DNA from: an uncultured Eubacteriales bacterium | GTDB taxonomy: Bacteria > Bacillota > Clostridia > Christensenellales > Aristaeellaceae | Assembly (NCBI GenBank): GCA_900316415.1 | Contig: ONCV01000010.1 | Span: forward strand, 1-56,375 | Length of the DNA: 56,375 bases | Direction: 5' to 3' | Shown here: one piece after another, positions 12,589 through 19,691 of the stretch | Layout of the letters: each line of letters begins with the position of its first letter | Numbering within the stretch: position 1 is the first letter of the stretch | The notes under the pieces: generated by a model | Databases searched by the model: none | The model's input: the letters and a program-made list of their open reading frames with translations, nothing else | Told to the model about the DNA's origin: nothing | Position numbers and translations under genes: made by a program

Positions 12589-12617
12589 TTGTGTTTTCCG
12601 GCCGTTCAGGATACAAT
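12589..12617 (+). promoter_or_regulatory. Promoter of the channel/TIR/RyR operon (TTGTGT-17-TACAAT)
   Basis: TTGTGT at 12589-12594 and TACAAT at 12612-12617 have ideal 17-base spacing, giving a start near 12624 and a leader of about 35 bases. It resembles a housekeeping sigma promoter, suggesting constitutive low-level expression. No operator palindrome is evident. Confidence 0.68.
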
Positions 12618-12658: not shown

Positions 12659-14227
12659 ATGAACGAAGGAACGCGGCGCGGAAGAGGAAAAAAGGGAAGG
12701 GCGGCGCTGCTTTTCCTGCTGTGCTACCTGGCGGCGCTGGCGCTGCTGACGCTCTCGGAGCGGCACGCGGAGGGAGCCAACATCCGGAGCCTGGGGGACG
12801 CGCTGTGGTATTCCCTGGTCACCATGACCACGGTGGGCTATGGGGATCTGGCCCCGGTCACGCTGCCGGGAAGAATCATCGGCCTGCTGTTTCTGGGAAT
12901 GAGCGTGAGCCTGTTCGGCCTTCTGCTCCACGGAATCTACGCCCTGATGACGGGAAGGCTGGTTCCCTGGCTCCGGCTGAGCCTGGGGAAGAGCCGGACC
13001 TGGTACCTTTTTGACCGGGCGGAGGAGGAAACCTGCCTGCTGGCGGAAAACCTGCTGGCGGGGGACGGGGACGCGCTGGCGGTGTTCTGCGGAACCGGGG
13101 CGCTTCCCCGGCGGGAACCCCGCTTCTGCGCCACGGAGAAGCCGGTCCGGGCGATGGCGGAATACGCGGAGCGGCAGGGCATCCGCTGCATCCTGTTCGC
13201 GGAGGGCGGCGGGGCGGACGCCGGAGAGGGACTGCCCGCGGGGCTCCGGGTGATCCGGAGGAAGGATCCGGAGATGCCGGGCGGCGCGGGAGAGATCTTT
13301 GATCCGATCGCGTCCGCGGCGCGGCAATACTGGAAGGATCATCCGGTTCGGCCCCGGGAGCGGGAAATCCTGCTGGTCGGCGACGGAATATGGGCCAGGG
13401 AGCTGCTGAACCGGGCCATTCTGAACAACGGGCGGGTTCCCTTTCAGACAACGGTATACCGGGTGTTCGGCGACTGGGCGGATTATCAGCGGAATCACAG
13501 CCGGCTGGGAACCGCGCTGGCGCTGAACCGCCTGGAGGAGGGCCGGGACAGCCTGTTCTTTGAGAAAGGCCCCTGGAATGAGGAGGAGCGGATCCGGGCC
13601 GCGGACCGCATCATCCTCTGCGGGGACGATCGGGAGGCCAACCGGCGGAAGGCCGGAACGCTGCTGACCTGGTTTCCCGCGAAGGCGGAGATCCACCTGC
13701 TGGGGGACGCGGCGGCGGAGGGCGTGATCTGCTTCGGAAGCATGCGTCCGGTGCTGACCCCGGAAAACGTGCTGCGGGATGAAATGAACCGGCTGGCCCG
13801 GGCGATGAACGAGCACTACCGCCGGAGATACGGCGGGCCGGCCTGGGAGGAGCTGGACGAGTTCACGAAGGAGCTGAACCGGGCCGCCGCCGACCATCTG
13901 TTCGTGAAGGCCCGCCTGCTGGCGGGGGACGGACCGATGGAGGAGGATGAACGCTTCCGGATCGCACTGGAGCGGTTCCGGACGGCGGATCCGGCGCTTC
14001 GGGAGAAATGCCGGAGAAACGAGCATGACCGGTGGATGCGCTTCTACTGCCTGTACAACTGGCGGCAGGGGGAGAAAAAGGATCCGGTTCAGCGCACGCA
14101 CCCCTGCATCGCGCCCTTTGAGGCGCTGTCCGCGGAGGATCAGGAGAAGGACGAGGGCCCCTGGGAACTGATGGAAATTGCCCTCCGCCGGGTGGGCGGA
14201 ACGGACGGGGAGGACGGAACGAAATGA
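12659..14227 (+). CDS. Two-helix K+ channel with Rossmann-like and C-terminal RyR-like domains
   Basis: A 522-residue membrane protein. Helix 1 is at 15-33, the pore loop carries the K+ selectivity filter TVGYGD (58-63), and helix 2 is at about 71-97. The cytoplasmic part has two Rossmann-like segments (ILLVGDGIWA near 237, RIILCGDD near 317) reminiscent of TrkA/RCK regulators. Residues 376-500 match the RyR repeat pattern: NEHDRWM, then NWRQGEKKD, HPCIAPFEAL and EKD. Such a channel should be tetrameric and gated from the cytoplasm; the RyR-like domain is the obvious ligand-binding candidate (inference). The start has GGAGGGGG 11 bases upstream. It overlaps the TIR gene by 4 bases (ATGA), indicating coupled translation. 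Confidence 0.87.
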   Translation: MNEGTRRGRGKKGRAALLFLLCYLAALALLTLSERHAEGANIRSLGDALWYSLVTMTTVGYGDLAPVTLPGRIIGLLFLGMSVSLFGLLLHGIYALMTGRLVPWLRLSLGKSRTWYLFDRAEEETCLLAENLLAGDGDALAVFCGTGALPRREPRFCATEKPVRAMAEYAERQGIRCILFAEGGGADAGEGLPAGLRVIRRKDPEMPGGAGEIFDPIASAARQYWKDHPVRPREREILLVGDGIWARELLNRAILNNGRVPFQTTVYRVFGDWADYQRNHSRLGTALALNRLEEGRDSLFFEKGPWNEEERIRAADRIILCGDDREANRRKAGTLLTWFPAKAEIHLLGDAAAEGVICFGSMRPVLTPENVLRDEMNRLARAMNEHYRRRYGGPAWEELDEFTKELNRAAADHLFVKARLLAGDGPMEEDERFRIALERFRTADPALREKCRRNEHDRWMRFYCLYNWRQGEKKDPVQRTHPCIAPFEALSAEDQEKDEGPWELMEIALRRVGGTDGEDGTK

Positions 14228-16269
14228 ACTGCGACGTGTTTATCAGCTACCGCCGGGACGGTGGGGACATGACCGCAATGTATATCTATCAGGCCCTGAA
14301 GGAGCGCGGCTACAACGTGTTCTATGACCTGGAGGTGCTGCGGGCGGGGAAGTTCAACGAGGCGCTGCTGGAGGCCATCGATTCCTGCACGGACTTCGTG
14401 CTGATCCTATCCCCGCACGCGCTGGACCGCTGCCGGGACGACGGCGACTGGGTGCGCCGGGAGATCGCCGAGGCGCTGAAGAAAAAGAAGAATATCGTGC
14501 CCGTGATGCTGAACGGCTTCCAGTTTCCGGAGGAGCTGCCGGAGGATATCGAAGACGTCCGGTTCCAGAACGGGCTGAGCGCCACGACGGAATACTTCAC
14601 GGAAAGCATGGACCGGCTATGCAGCCGGTATCTGACCTCCCGCCCCGTCAGCGCGGAGAAGGACGAATCCGCCTCCGCCTCCCGGGGAAAGGGCCGGGGA
14701 AAGGGCCTGCTGATCGGCGGGATCCTCGGCGGCGCCGCCGCCCTGGCCGCGATCGTGCTGGCCGTCAGCGGCGCGCTGAAGGGAAAGGAGCCGCCGGCCG
14801 CGCTGCCGGAAGCTGCCCCGGCGGCTTCGGAAACGGCGGCGCCGGAGATCAGCGAGGCGCCGGCCGCCACGGAGGCGCCCGAGGCCCCGGCAGAGACGCA
14901 GGCGCCGGCGGTGGATGCGGCGGACAGCGCCGGCACGGCGCAGGCCCTGAAGGACATGGACCTGCCGGTGCTGCGCTGGGATGATCAGGGGACGACCGAT
15001 GCCTCCCTGCTTCCTTCCCGGCCCGCGATGGGCGGGCCGCTGGCGCGGAGCGAGATCGACCGGATCGCGGTGACCGACGGGGAGCCCGGAGCGGACGCGT
15101 GGGACGTCTCCGAGGCCGGGGACGGCAGCATCCGGGCCTGGATTGAAACGGAGGGGGAGAAGAACACGCTGCTCATCAGCGCGGGCGGGCCGATCCGGAT
15201 GCCGCAGACGGTCAACGGCATGTTCCAGGGCTACACCCGGGCGAAGAGCATCGAATGGAACGGGCTGGTGGATTTTTCCCGGACGGAGAACGCGACCAAC
15301 CTGTTTTCGGATATCGGCACCACCTCGCTGGATCTGAGCGGGATGGATTTCTCGTCCCTGCAGATGGCGGACGGGATGTTCCAGAACTGCCACGCCCTGA
15401 AGACGCTGAATCTGACCGGAGCCCGGATGGACCATCTGACCGATACGACCGCGATGTTTGACGGCTGCGAGCTCCTGGAGCAGCTGGACCTGAGCGGCCT
15501 GGATACCTCCCGGGTGCAGAGCATGACGGATATGTTCCATGCCTGCAGATCCCTGCGCAGCCTGGATCTGAGCGGCTTCCATACCGGCCGGGCGACCCGG
15601 ATGAACAGCCTGTTCGACGGCTGCGAACGCCTGGAAAGCCTGAATCTGGAAGGCTGGGACACTTCCCGGGTGACCACCATGGAGGCCATGTTCGCCTTCT
15701 GCGGGAAGCTGGAAAACCTGGATGTGAGTCAGTTCCGGACGGAAAGCGCGGAAACCATGCGGAATATGTTCCTGGGCTGCTCCAGCCTGCTGACGCTGGA
15801 TGTTTCCGGGTTTGACACCCGGCGCGTGGAGGAGTTCGGCGGGATGTTTGACGGCTGCGTCCTGCTGGACGGGCTGGATATCCGGGGATGGGACACCTCC
15901 TCCGCGCAGAATATGCAATTCATGTTCCAGGGGTGCCAGTCCCTGACGTCGCTGGATGTCAGCGGGCTGAAAACCGCCTCCGTGCGGGACATGTGCGCCA
16001 TGTTCCTGGGCATGGAGCAGGCGGAGGAACTGGATGTCAGCCATTTCGATACGGGCAGTGTCCGGATCTTCTCCAACATGTTCACGGAATGCCGCCGCCT
16101 GAAGAAGCTGGATGTCAGCGGCTTTGCCCTCGATTCGGCGGAGGAGATGGCGGGGATGTTCTCCGGGTGCGTGGAACTGACGGACATCGGGATGGATCCG
16201 GCCCACTTCGCGAAGGGCAATACGGAAGGAATGTACGCGGGCACGGTCTGGGATCCGGAAAAACCGTAA
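14224..16269 (+). CDS. TIR-domain transmembrane receptor with BspA-type (DUF285) repeats
   Basis: A 681-residue single-pass protein. An N-terminal TIR domain (1-137) starts CDVFISYRRDGGD and carries the putative catalytic glutamate Glu80 in DWVRREIAEAL, the position used by NAD+-cleaving TIR enzymes such as SARM1. A basic Ser/Gly stretch leads to a membrane helix (160-183), a Pro/Ala/Glu-rich spacer (190-240), a beta-rich region, and 12 repeats of exactly 26 residues (342-653) of the LDLSG-DTS-V--M--MF-GC type. The repeats should lie outside the cell and TIR inside, a Toll-receptor-like plan. It is translationally coupled to the channel gene and 45 bases before the next membrane RyR-like gene. 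Ligand and enzyme activity are unknown. Confidence 0.88.
   Translation: MNCDVFISYRRDGGDMTAMYIYQALKERGYNVFYDLEVLRAGKFNEALLEAIDSCTDFVLILSPHALDRCRDDGDWVRREIAEALKKKKNIVPVMLNGFQFPEELPEDIEDVRFQNGLSATTEYFTESMDRLCSRYLTSRPVSAEKDESASASRGKGRGKGLLIGGILGGAAALAAIVLAVSGALKGKEPPAALPEAAPAASETAAPEISEAPAATEAPEAPAETQAPAVDAADSAGTAQALKDMDLPVLRWDDQGTTDASLLPSRPAMGGPLARSEIDRIAVTDGEPGADAWDVSEAGDGSIRAWIETEGEKNTLLISAGGPIRMPQTVNGMFQGYTRAKSIEWNGLVDFSRTENATNLFSDIGTTSLDLSGMDFSSLQMADGMFQNCHALKTLNLTGARMDHLTDTTAMFDGCELLEQLDLSGLDTSRVQSMTDMFHACRSLRSLDLSGFHTGRATRMNSLFDGCERLESLNLEGWDTSRVTTMEAMFAFCGKLENLDVSQFRTESAETMRNMFLGCSSLLTLDVSGFDTRRVEEFGGMFDGCVLLDGLDIRGWDTSSAQNMQFMFQGCQSLTSLDVSGLKTASVRDMCAMFLGMEQAEELDVSHFDTGSVRIFSNMFTECRRLKKLDVSGFALDSAEEMAGMFSGCVELTDIGMDPAHFAKGNTEGMYAGTVWDPEKP
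15247..16182 (+). repeat. 12 x 78-bp coding repeats (DUF285/BspA-like LRR)
   Basis: Twelve contiguous units of 26 codons with no insertions or deletions encode the ectodomain repeats of the TIR receptor. The conserved frame is LDLSG near the start and MF-GC near the end; the first and last units are the most degenerate. This is protein-level repetition, not a CRISPR array. Confidence 0.88.
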
Positions 16270-16314
16270 CGGAACGGCTTCGGACGCCGGACGGCGGGAA
16301 AGGAGGGGGAAGCG

Positions 16315-18183
16315 TTGATCATTACCTCCATTGGAATGGTTCTGGCTCTGGCGGCGGTGTTTATTGCGGCCGTGCTCAATCTGGCGCTGGACAGCGGCTT
16401 CCGCAAGCGGCTGGTCCGGGTGTCCCTGCTCCTGACCTCGCTGATCGGGCTCGTCTTCTACGGATGGGGATACGCCTGGACCTACGGCGCCAACATGACC
16501 TCCCTGATCCGGGCGCTGATGGCGACCTGCCGGATGTTCGCCGGAATCAATGATCTCGGATCGATTCAGAATTCCCCGCCGGTCAGCCACCCGGCGGGGC
16601 TGGCGATCTTCTGGCTCGGGCATTTCCTGGGCTTCTACGCCACGGCCAGCGCGACGATCGCGGCGCTGGGCGAAAAGCTGCTGCGGGATATCCGGGTGAC
16701 GCTGCTCCGCCGGGGAACGCTGCTGATCGTCTACGGAATCAACTCCCGCTCCATGGCCTACGGGCGGCGGATGGCCGGAGAAAAGCGGTGCTCCGTGATC
16801 TTTGTGGATCAGGACTGCAGCACGGATTTTGAGGCCGCCGCCAAATCCTTCGGGGCGATCATCGAAAAGGGAAAGGACGCGCTGGAGGCCAGCCCGCGCT
16901 TCCTGAAACGGGTGAACCTGAAGGCGGGGAAGCGGAAAATGGAGCTGGCCGCGCTGCACCGCAGCGGGCGGAAGAATCTGGAATACGCCCGGAAGCTGCT
17001 GGAATCGATGAAGGCGGCGGGGATCCATCCCGAGCAGACCCGGCTGCTGGCGTCGGGAATCGGGGAGGAGGCCGCGGCGCTGCAGGCGGTGAAGGGAGAC
17101 GGATACGGCAGCGTTTATGCCTTCGATGAATATGAACTGACCGCGCGGATGATCATCCGGGACCATCCCCCCTGCGATCAGATTTCCTTTGACGATCGGG
17201 GCAGGGCAGCGGAGAATTTCCACGCGGTGATCCTTGGCTTCGGCCGGATGGGCCGGGCGGTGCTGACCCAGCTGGTCATGAACGGGCAGTTTTACGGAAG
17301 CCGCTTCCGGGTGGATATCTTCGATCCCGGCGCGCAGAATGGCTTCCTGCACGGGCATCCGATGATGGCCGCCTACGATATCCGCTTTCACAGCCTGGAC
17401 GCGACGCAGGATTCCTTCTATTCCTTCCTGGAGGAAAACCGGAAGGATGTGAAGATGATGATCCTCTGCACCGGGAACGCGGAGCAGAACTACGAGATCG
17501 CAGGCGACCTGGCGGCGTGGTGGCCGTGGAATGAGCGGATGCCGCTGACCGTCTACGTCACCCGGGAGAGCTGCTTCTGGCTGGATGAAACCCGGCACGA
17601 AACGGAGCGGGGCGATTTCCTCGAGGGCGGCTGTCCGGATCTGGAGGAGATGGACGCCATGGCGCGGCAGATCAATTATATCTATCACCGGGGGAAGGGC
17701 GAAAGCCTGACTGCGGAGGAAGCCTGGCGGGAATGCAGCTACGCGGACCGGCAGAGCAGCAGGGCCAGCGCGGACTTCTATCCGGCCGTGCTGCGCGCTT
17801 CCGGGAAAACCGCGGAGCAGGTGCTGGCGGGGGACTGGCCGCCGGACGCGGAGACGCTGGAAAACCTGGCGATCACGGAGCACCTGCGCTGGTGCGCCTA
17901 TCAGTATGCCAACGGGTACGCGGCCATGTCCGAAGAAGTCTGGGAGCAGCGGGCGGCGCGGTACCGCAGCGGCGCGGAACCCGGGTTCCGGATCAGCCGG
18001 GACAATCAGAACCGGCTGCAGGCCTGCCTGACCCCCTGGGAGAAGCTGGACGAGCTGTCCGACCGGGAAAACGCGGTGACCGGCGGGCAGGTGGATTACA
18101 AGCAGATGGACCGGAACAATGTGCTGATGCTCCGGGAGATCCTGCAGGCCCGGCAGGATACGGAGCCCCGGAAGGAAAATTGA
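16315..18183 (+). CDS. Three-helix membrane protein with two Rossmann folds and a C-terminal RyR-like domain
   Basis: A 622-residue protein starting at TTG, with AGGAGGGGG six bases upstream; an in-frame ATG at 16336 would cut into helix 1. Membrane helices are at about 4-24, 33-55 and 94-118, with no K+ filter sequence. A first Rossmann-like segment begins near 134 (TLLIVYGINSRS) and a second, more canonical TrkA-like one near 303 (AVILGFGRMGRAV). The C-terminus (about 505-605) is RyR-like: ITEHLRWCAYQYANGY, LTPWEKLDEL and DYKQMDR. It may be a partner subunit or a second effector of the TIR system. It differs from the channel protein in its membrane part and lacks a recognisable pore, so its transport role is open. 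Confidence 0.8.
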   Translation: MIITSIGMVLALAAVFIAAVLNLALDSGFRKRLVRVSLLLTSLIGLVFYGWGYAWTYGANMTSLIRALMATCRMFAGINDLGSIQNSPPVSHPAGLAIFWLGHFLGFYATASATIAALGEKLLRDIRVTLLRRGTLLIVYGINSRSMAYGRRMAGEKRCSVIFVDQDCSTDFEAAAKSFGAIIEKGKDALEASPRFLKRVNLKAGKRKMELAALHRSGRKNLEYARKLLESMKAAGIHPEQTRLLASGIGEEAAALQAVKGDGYGSVYAFDEYELTARMIIRDHPPCDQISFDDRGRAAENFHAVILGFGRMGRAVLTQLVMNGQFYGSRFRVDIFDPGAQNGFLHGHPMMAAYDIRFHSLDATQDSFYSFLEENRKDVKMMILCTGNAEQNYEIAGDLAAWWPWNERMPLTVYVTRESCFWLDETRHETERGDFLEGGCPDLEEMDAMARQINYIYHRGKGESLTAEEAWRECSYADRQSSRASADFYPAVLRASGKTAEQVLAGDWPPDAETLENLAITEHLRWCAYQYANGYAAMSEEVWEQRAARYRSGAEPGFRISRDNQNRLQACLTPWEKLDELSDRENAVTGGQVDYKQMDRNNVLMLREILQARQDTEPRKEN

Positions 18184-18221: not shown

Positions 18222-19691
18222 ATGCGTTTTCAGAATCCGATTCTGAAGGGGGACTATTCCGATCCGGATGTGATCCGCGTCGGCGGGGACTTTTATATGA
18301 TTTCCTCCTCCTTCACCTATCTTCCGGGAATTCCGGTTCTTCATTCCCGGGATCTGGTGAACTGGGAGCTGATCGGCTATGCCGCGGCCCGGCTGCCCTT
18401 TGAAAGGTACCGCCGCCCCGTGCACAAGTGCGGCACCTGGGCGCCGAGCCTTCGCTGGCACAACGGCCTGTTCTATGTCTACGTCTGCCTGCCGGACGAA
18501 GGCCTGTTCGCCTTCACCGCGGCGGATCCCGCCGGGGAATGGGAATGCCATTGGGTGAAGGACGTATGCGGATGGATTGATCCCTGCCCCCTGTTCGACG
18601 AGGACGGACGGGCCTGGCTGCTGCACGGGTTTGCGGCCAGCCGCTGCGGCATCAACAATGTGCTGTATGTCCATGAAATGTCGCCGGACGGGTTCCGGGT
18701 GCTGGACAAGGGCGTTCCGGTCTACCGCGGCGCGGAGCACGGGGACGTCACCGTGGAAGGCCCCAAGTGGTACAGGCGGGAGGGCATGTACTGGATCCTC
18801 TGTCCGGCGGGCGGGGTGAAACCGGGATATCAGCTGGCGCTGCGGTCCCCGAACCTGCTGGGCCCCTATGAACGGAAGATCGTCCTGAGCCAGGGAAGCA
18901 CGGAAATCAATGGCCCGCACCAGGGCGGCTGGGTGACCGACGGCCGGGGCGGCGACTGGTTCATTCATTTTCAGGATGTGGACGCCTACGGCCGGGTGCC
19001 GCATCTGCAGCCGGTTTGCTGGGACAGCGGCTGGCCCGTCATGGGACGGGAGGGCAAGCCGGTACTCTCCGGGGAAACGCCGCTTCCGGAAGCCCCCGCC
19101 TCCATTCCGACCTCGGATGATTTCCGGGAAAGAATCGGCCTGCAGTGGCAGTGGCAGGCCAATCCCGATCCCGCCTGGTATTCCCTGCTGAAGCCGGGGC
19201 TGCGGCTTCACGCCGCCCCGTCGGACAGCCTGTTCCATGCGGGGCAGTTCCTGTCCCAGCTGATGCAGGGCTATGATTTCGACATGGACGTCACCCTCCG
19301 GACCCATTTCCATCCCGGGGACCGGGTATGCATCGGCATGATGGGATATCCCTATCACTATGCCGCGCTGACGGAGGAGGGCCTGTGCCTCGTGCGGGGC
19401 GATATCCGGGAGTACGGGCGGAGCATCCCGGAAACCGTTACGGAAACCGTGCTGGCCTCCGTTCCCGGGGCGAAAACCTCCCTCCGGCTGCGCCTGTCCG
19501 TCCGGAAGGGCGAAATGACCTTCTTCCATGGAGACGACGGGAAAGCCTGGCAGCAGATCGGCGGAACCTGCCCGATGGCGCCGGGAGGATGGACCGGCGC
19601 GCGGCCCGGAATCTGCTGCTGGAACACCGGGGGCTGCTGGGGCGGATGGACGGATGTGAGCGAGGTCCGCTTTACCTATCTGGACGAATAA
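18222..19691 (+). CDS. GH43 glycosidase (arabinofuranosidase/beta-xylosidase type)
   Basis: A 489-residue enzyme with a five-bladed propeller catalytic domain (about 1-300) and a C-terminal beta-sandwich (about 305-489) as in GH43 xylosidases. The catalytic triad is visible: base Asp14 (YSDPD), pKa-modulating Asp120 (GWIDP) and acid Glu179 (TVEGPKW). It has no signal peptide and should act on imported oligosaccharides. GGGAG lies 11 bases before the ATG. It begins 38 bases after the RyR-like gene with no promoter I can see between them, so it may be read through from the TIR operon although its function belongs with the glycan genes. Confidence 0.9.
   Translation: MRFQNPILKGDYSDPDVIRVGGDFYMISSSFTYLPGIPVLHSRDLVNWELIGYAAARLPFERYRRPVHKCGTWAPSLRWHNGLFYVYVCLPDEGLFAFTAADPAGEWECHWVKDVCGWIDPCPLFDEDGRAWLLHGFAASRCGINNVLYVHEMSPDGFRVLDKGVPVYRGAEHGDVTVEGPKWYRREGMYWILCPAGGVKPGYQLALRSPNLLGPYERKIVLSQGSTEINGPHQGGWVTDGRGGDWFIHFQDVDAYGRVPHLQPVCWDSGWPVMGREGKPVLSGETPLPEAPASIPTSDDFRERIGLQWQWQANPDPAWYSLLKPGLRLHAAPSDSLFHAGQFLSQLMQGYDFDMDVTLRTHFHPGDRVCIGMMGYPYHYAALTEEGLCLVRGDIREYGRSIPETVTETVLASVPGAKTSLRLRLSVRKGEMTFFHGDDGKAWQQIGGTCPMAPGGWTGARPGICCWNTGGCWGGWTDVSEVRFTYLDE

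Follow-up and report, generated by a model that had tools for sequence, protein, structure and literature searches.

A candidate TIR-linked K+ channel system: a recurrent gene trio encoding a RyR-domain channel, an exchangeable TIR protein and a membrane partner

A trio of adjacent genes encoding a RyR-domain K+ channel (P1), a TIR protein predicted to be membrane-bound (P2) and a second membrane protein with a RyR-like C-terminus (P3) was investigated in a stretch of 56,375 nucleotides, here called the window, from an uncultured Eubacteriales bacterium of the family Aristaeellaceae (contig ONCV01000010.1, assembly GCA_900316415.1). The three genes follow one another in coupled order and recur together in other genomes; P1 and P3 diverge in a correlated manner, the TIR partner is exchanged on this P1–P3 core, and both the active-site glutamate of the TIR domain and the K+ selectivity filter of the channel are intact. 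We propose, with a probability of about 0.6, that P1, P2 and P3 form one signalling unit in which an ADP-ribose-type messenger, made by the TIR domain from nicotinamide adenine dinucleotide (NAD+), would open the channel through its RyR/RCK gating ring.

Protein searches at an E-value of 1e-3 or better gave at least 121 relatives of P1, a few of them pore-only matches, and at least 173 of P3. P1 matches were present in 8 of 61 genomes (E 1e-10; five near full length). For P3, the order yielded matches in 8 of 297 genomes (E 1e-10), the class in 16 of 391 and the phylum in 2 of 348 (both at E 1e-8; the two from the phylum had already been seen), and the family in 15 of 200 (E 1e-30). The spread of P1 and P3 is thus patchy, as in many accessory systems. 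P1, P3 and a TIR gene stand together in 19 loci (the window, L155–L158, L163, L013, L018, L021, L024, L223, L230–L236 and L239, L and G numbers denoting loci and genomes, respectively), and seven more (L162, L164–L167, L209 and L210) combine P3 and TIR without a full P1. The trio is truncated by a contig end in L163, L018 and L223, and the TIR gene is on the opposite strand in L163, L013 and L021. The orders P1-TIR-P3, P1-P3-TIR, TIR-P1-P3 and TIR-P3-P1 all occur, and the link between the genes is therefore independent of any one inherited order. The original prediction, made from the sequence of the window, had staked its case on conservation of the trio beyond this strain, and its occurrence at 19 loci in many genomes bears this out.

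The frequency of the association was compared with that expected if the TIR genes of each genome were placed at random into a 12-kb stretch. The first set of 26 genomes comprised 23 with a P3-family match in the order or class, including that of the window, and three (G003, G007 and G010) reached via P1; each holds between one and seven TIR genes (Pfam TIR_2). A TIR gene adjoins the P3-family gene in 14 of the 26, against 0.34 expected, adjacency in this set being assigned by hand from the TIR search and the gene maps. Divided into groups that were defined after the data had been seen, the figures are 8 of 10 for full-length P3 (the exceptions being G355 and G504), 6 of 6 for distant relatives, and none of the ten made up of one family, f38 (nine genomes), and G483. 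In 12 further genomes from the family search a TIR gene adjoins the trio in ten, against 0.08 expected; among these, G1185 is the very genome that carries L024, with an identical TIR protein, and its exclusion leaves 9 of 11. Neither of the two misses, G1042 (5.6-kb contig, 75% complete) and G031, has a TIR_2 match at E 0.001 genome-wide. In G031, which is of the same genus, contig 75 carries a P3 frame shortened to about 320 codons with neither P1 nor TIR beside it (L240:5774-6730), as if the whole system were decaying as a unit. That the three genes are chance neighbours, or were inherited together without a functional link, could draw on the gene order shared among related genomes; the excess over expectation in both sets, and the variation in order and in TIR type, already disfavour this explanation, which we regard as barely credible.

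The sequence identities of P1 and P3 correlate across 13 loci (r 0.79, permutation p 0.0002), and the correlations of P1 with TIR (r 0.60, p 0.003, 9 loci) and of P3 with TIR (r 0.39, p 0.007, 11 loci) are weaker, all of these p-values being too small because the loci share ancestry. Despite this shared ancestry, gene orders and TIR types vary among loci. The P3 protein of the window is 60–65% identical to those of L155, L156 and L157, which are of the same genus, whereas the TIR domains of these loci are just 20–23% identical to that of the window and their TIR proteins carry Sel1 repeats (by Pfam in L155 and L157, by similarity to L155 in L156). The TIR domain of the window shares 80% identity with that of L024 and 81% with that of L239, both of which have DUF285 repeats and C-terminal parts 41% and 43% identical, respectively, to that of P2, yet the P3 of L024 is only 37% identical to that of the window. 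Other partner TIR proteins carry TPR (L158) or beta-propeller-type repeats (L162 and L164, with L021 below the cut-off), and 6 of 10 partner proteins scanned from related loci pass the Pfam ThsB_TIR cut-off. Hydropathy predicts a transmembrane helix in the SARM1-, Sel1-, TPR- and propeller-type partners scanned, and none in those of L165 (both), L166 and L210 or in one of the two of L167. By motif reading in the first-mapped loci, 20 of the 21 partner TIR domains from outside the window retain the active-site glutamate, as does that of the window itself; only the first of two L158 TIRs lacks it, and the motif spacing is shifted in L165 and L167. In these last two loci (L165:4034-8010 and L167:76-4053) the distant P3-like genes are preceded by two tandem TIR genes, the first being that with the unusual spacing.

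One core could be combined with quite different TIR classes if these shared a small-molecule product, and TIR exchange on a constant channel core constitutes genome-only evidence of a common output fed by different TIR classes. A second TIR gene in the genome of the window (contig 20, 33564-34967; L216:7565-8968) encodes a Sel1-type-like protein of 467 amino acids, the TIR domain of which is 72% identical to that beside P1 and P3 in L155. As the only P1 and P3 matches of this genome are those in the window, the second TIR protein might signal to the window channel from afar.

P2 is likely to be a membrane receptor. Its TIR domain scores 58.1 bits against TIR_2 (cut-off 28) and aligns with SARM1 over residues 4–132 (E 2e-27), and it has the catalytic-glutamate feature of SARM1-like TIR NADases, Glu80 lying in a WVxxEI motif; we take this residue to be the counterpart of the catalytic E642 of SARM1. 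SARM1, which has ARM and SAM domains, differs in lacking the transmembrane and leucine-rich-repeat part of P2. In the latter, the sole predicted transmembrane helix is followed by a Pro/Ala-rich linker and then by PARCEL/DUF285 repeats (DUF285 200 bits), which we infer to lie outside the cell because a basic stretch precedes the helix. The TIR–transmembrane–leucine-rich-repeat architecture originally put forward for P2 is thus borne out by the profiles and by hydropathy, its receptor role being predicted. Against Thoeris models, P2 scored 13.9 bits for Pfam ThsB_TIR, below the cut-off of 21.2, matched the PADLOC ThsB model at E 4.5e-9, and scored 45.5 bits for the NCBIfam Thoeris type III ThcB4 model, far under its cut-off of 220.

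The predicted P1 protein is a KcsA-type K+ channel (Ion_trans_2 50.8 bits, cut-off 22.5) with the first transmembrane helix, pore helix, TVGYGD filter and second transmembrane helix of an RCK-gated channel, and TVG[YF]GD is present in 24 of 25 relatives examined. It is also a member of the RyR family PF02026 (33.4 bits, cut-off 27.4), and the P1 family profile matches RyR1 at an E-value of about 1e-19 to 1e-20. The earlier description of P1 as a VGYGD channel with a C-terminal RyR-like domain therefore holds in both parts; it made no mention of the two RCK-like Rossmann domains contained in the predicted P1 model. The predicted models match the gating rings of GsuK, TrkA, KtrA and CASTOR, and Foldseek ranks GsuK first for P1 and for P3 alike, the P1–GsuK match being loose overall (TM-score 0.31–0.41). 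To our knowledge GsuK has no RyR domain, and P1 differs from it by this additional domain and, where the trio is present, by a TIR partner encoded in the same operon.

P3 falls short of every Pfam cut-off (TrkA_N 12.7 bits, cut-off 23.8). Support for its Rossmann and RyR-like parts comes from an AlphaFold2 model and from profile–profile alignment to P1, at E 4e-14 for the RyR part and E 1e-12 for the RCK part against 0.59 and 0.58 for the reversed controls; the cytoplasmic half of P3 is homologous to that of P1. Accordingly, of the profile assignments that had been suggested, TIR in P2 and RyR in P1 were accepted by Pfam, and those of Rossmann and RyR-like parts in P3 stand by comparison with P1 and by the model and fail at the Pfam cut-offs. 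Membrane helices of P3 are predicted at residues 2–20 and 33–51 by hydropathy and at 93–131 in the model, in which the helix order is similar to that of a K+ channel pore without the canonical filter; the P3 pore loop is a guess from this structure. Homology of the P3 pore by sequence was rejected, since alignment of the transmembrane regions with hhalign gave E 0.072 against 0.074 and 0.12 for reversed controls.

In the mechanism that we propose, the TIR protein would use its variable C-terminal part to sense an outside trigger, which may be a phage, another microbe or an envelope stress, and the trigger would lead the TIR domains to cluster; the predicted enzyme would turn NAD+ into a messenger, whether cyclic ADP-ribose (cADPR), 2'/3'cADPR or ADP-ribose; and the messenger would bind the RyR/RCK gating ring of P1 and P3 and open the channel. 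P1 and P3 may form one heteromeric channel or two cooperating channels, and the output would be K+ flux, which in defence or stress might end in depolarization or growth arrest. To a more specific model we give somewhat less than even odds. This is a cADPR-to-RyR-type axis with exchangeable membrane TIR receptors, in which an NAD+-derived messenger would open a heteromeric P1–P3 channel via the RyR domains of the gating ring; P1 would contribute its K+ filter, and P3 would add a pore loop bearing a new filter (GxND in place of GYGD). The interpretation offered in the original prediction is partly supported, with conservation of the trio and the TIR and RyR profiles in its favour; its single promoter and a defence context found no support (see below).

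Outside support for the action of a TIR product on RyR-type domains comes from RyDEP of phage DyoEdafos (PMC13232231), TIR-made cADPR isomers being bound by such domains in phages. RyDEP touches its ligand via H75, W78, H100 and D117 and both holds and cleaves 2'/3'cADPR in the pocket formed by these residues; 2'/3'cADPR was bound by six of eight phage homologues tested, and those other than DyoEdafos RyDEP did not cleave it (PMC13232231). P1 belongs to the same RyR/R12 family and by MAFFT alignment has all four pocket residues (H456, W459, H481 and D498) at the same steps of 3, 22 and 17, although RyDEP is a stand-alone phage counter-defence protein and the RyR domain of P1 is part of a channel beside a TIR gene. 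ADP-ribose-type ligands of the P1 RyR domain are thus plausible. The same residues could also mean that the RyR domain is a RyDEP-like signal-clearing enzyme, in which case the channel protein would end the TIR signal and K+ flux would be gated otherwise. P1 keeps the catalytic H/D pair, with an Asp register uncertain by one, but P3 has no such Asp and cleavage among the phage homologues tested is confined to DyoEdafos RyDEP (PMC13232231), and we consider this explanation very unlikely.

The main rival to a messenger-gated channel is sensing of the NAD+ level itself, whereby the TIR protein would chiefly remove NAD+ and the RCK/RyR module of P1 and P3 would answer a fall in NAD+ or a change in the ADP/NAD+ ratio. 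SARM1-type TIRs are strong NADases, which would suit such a role. So would the resemblance of P1 and P3 to GsuK, a dual-RCK multi-ligand K+ channel activated by ADP and NAD+ (PMC3510474). However, this explanation leaves the added RyR domain unaccounted for, and phage RyR domains bind 2'/3'cADPR (PMC13232231); we regard it as unlikely.

A number of points weigh against a messenger-gated signalling unit, among them the overstated significance of the identity correlations and the looseness of the GsuK match. The evidence consists of sequence and predicted structure, so that catalysis, binding and gating are all predicted. The register of the P1 Asp is possibly off by one (D498 or E499), and a pattern in which TIR-linked P1s appeared to keep the D117 counterpart and solitary P1s to lose it was dropped because the register shifts by one residue. 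The P3 of the window has two of the four RyDEP pocket residues (H523 and W526 by MAFFT) and a Gln for RyDEP H100, a place split in the family between His (17 of 25 members) and Gln (8), and the D117 counterpart is missing, its place being non-acidic, in all six P3 rows aligned. The pocket residues are also common to animal RyR (PMC13232231), for the R12 domain of which there are structures containing ATP-type ligands (entries 6uhh and 9ls7), and being family-wide they do not name the ligand.

The distribution of the genes supplies further points of this kind. A TIR gene is lacking at the P3-family gene in 12 of the 26 genomes of the first set, namely G355 and G504, with full-length solitary P3, and ten with distant relatives, some of them on short contigs (G400, 3.7 kb). 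In L195 and L196, from two species of one genus, the fetched stretch has a full-length P3 with neither P1 nor TIR, and the surrounding genes look by eye like those for lipoproteins and transporters. P1 loci were mapped from genome contigs in 21 cases (L010–L030), out of 80 kept from at least 490 relatives, the mostly short, pore-only L031–L089 being left out. P1 is solitary in 13 of these 21, without P3 or, in the fetched stretch, any TIR gene, and one of the 13 (L030) also has no pore motif. Seven have P3; four of these have a TIR gene, as against none of the 13, a contrast that speaks for the signalling unit. Two of the seven (L011 and L029) have none, and in L023 an upstream open reading frame is similar to the C-terminal portion of the L028 TIR protein (phmmer E 1.7e-140), the latter locus being a contig end that bears the tail of P1 and a TIR gene. 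L159–L161 are weak P1 matches without P3 or TIR. Two solitary P1-like channels (L010:9998-13027 and L027:9968-14358) adjoin TrkH, with TrkA also present in L027, which suggests that the solitary form has an ordinary K+ role.

Nor did the surroundings of the trio reveal a link with defence or phages, the context for which a check had originally been suggested. PADLOC matched none of 10 neighbours from seven loci (the two window flanks and eight in related loci), and the window neighbours tested are alpha-rhamnosidase, alpha-galactosidase, GH43, PspC and sortase-type proteins; the reading as a defence island is thus unsupported. No P3 relative was found in a scan of viral contigs, and of 56 viral loci matching P1, the similarity is confined to the pore part (query residues 1–123) in 55 and lies in the RyR part in one (L131). 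A viral origin was dropped on these grounds.

The solitary P1 loci, including the two beside TrkH, and the PADLOC result would both fit ordinary K+ homeostasis genes accompanied by a non-enzymatic TIR scaffold, with no nucleotide signal. The active-site glutamate is nevertheless retained in nearly all partner TIR domains, and where the TIR domain has been swapped it is for another, quite different TIR domain, so that TIR is what is kept; we judge this account distinctly unlikely.

Of the known systems, Thoeris (ThsB TIR plus ThsA effector) resembles the trio in that a TIR gene adjoins the gene for a predicted nucleotide-responsive effector. It differs in that the trio pairs its TIR with a K+ channel bearing RCK-like and RyR domains instead of a SIR2-SLOG or macro-type ThsA, and in that the trio TIR carries a transmembrane helix and a variable C-terminal part. 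No PADLOC match, to ThsA or otherwise, was obtained for P1, P3, the two flanking genes of the window and eight neighbours in related loci, to which the search was limited. The TIR messenger systems known to us act via NADase, membrane or protease effectors, and we infer that the trio is a TIR messenger system with a channel effector, new unless a 2025 preprint on TIR systems lists the same. Among the literature titles and abstract openings listed, none described an operon of TIR, RyR and K+ channel genes, that preprint and a 2015 survey of nucleotide-centred conflict systems lying outside the comparison, and a term search of PMC9092222 found nothing on channels or operons.

The animal ryanodine receptor, like P1, has a RyR R12 domain on a cation channel, and a link to cADPR has been proposed for it (PMC13232231). 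It is a Ca2+ release channel, whereas P1 has a K+ filter and RCK-like domains. The action of cADPR on RyR is debated, and the trio, with a 522-residue channel and a TIR enzyme in one operon, would offer a small reconstitutable model for the cADPR–R12 question. If the proposed signalling unit is correct, TIR immunity-type chemistry would be linked to bacterial membrane potential through a RyR-domain K+ channel.

The features of the locus are listed in Table 1. The three genes lie on one strand as had been predicted, with P1 and P2 overlapping and P3 starting 45 bp past the end of P2. The claim that a single promoter drives them found no support, as the promoter-like sequence falls below the scanner threshold and no plus-strand promoter was listed at its position.

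Table 1. Positions in the window of the trio and of its parts
Feature	Position	Strand	Basis or remark
Promoter-like TTGTGT-17-TACAAT	12589..12617	+	Sequence, 8/12 consensus bases; weak
P1, K+ channel pore, dual-RCK-like module and RyR domain	12659..14227	+	522 aa
P1 selectivity filter TVGYGD	12830..12847	+	Sequence; residues 58–63
P1 RyR (R12) domain	13994..14155	+	H456, W459, H481, D498 align with RyDEP H75, W78, H100, D117
P2 start/P1 stop overlap	14224..14227	+	Sequence; 4 bp (P2 ATG)
P2, TIR–transmembrane–PARCEL/DUF285 leucine-rich-repeat protein, likely receptor	14224..16269	+	681 aa
P2 TIR domain, SARM1-like	14233..14619	+	Glu80 in WVxxEI motif
P2 sole predicted transmembrane helix	14710..14766	+	Hydropathy; residues 163–181
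P2 leucine-rich/DUF285 (PARCEL) repeats, best-scoring part	15364..15936	+	Profiles; extracellular location predicted
P3, membrane protein with dual-RCK-like module and RyR-like C-terminus	16315..18183	+	622 aa; TTG start
P3 pore-loop-like segment	16492..16554	+	Model; residues 60–80, MFAGINDL against P1 TTVGYGDL
P3 RCK-like double Rossmann region	16714..17634	+	Profile–profile, model; residues 134–440
P3 RyR-like C-terminal domain	17848..18126	+	H523, W526; Gln at the place of RyDEP H100

No Rfam match above the gathering score and no tRNA were found in the window. Terminator-like sites were not commoner than in shuffled sequence (3 found, 3.8 expected), and both of those listed on the plus strand lie within the next gene. 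That gene, for a GH43 glycosidase (18222-19691, plus strand), begins 38 bp past P3, and the transcript may continue beyond P3 because no terminator-like site was listed between the two. Genes for an alpha-rhamnosidase and an alpha-galactosidase lie on the opposite side of the trio from the GH43 gene.

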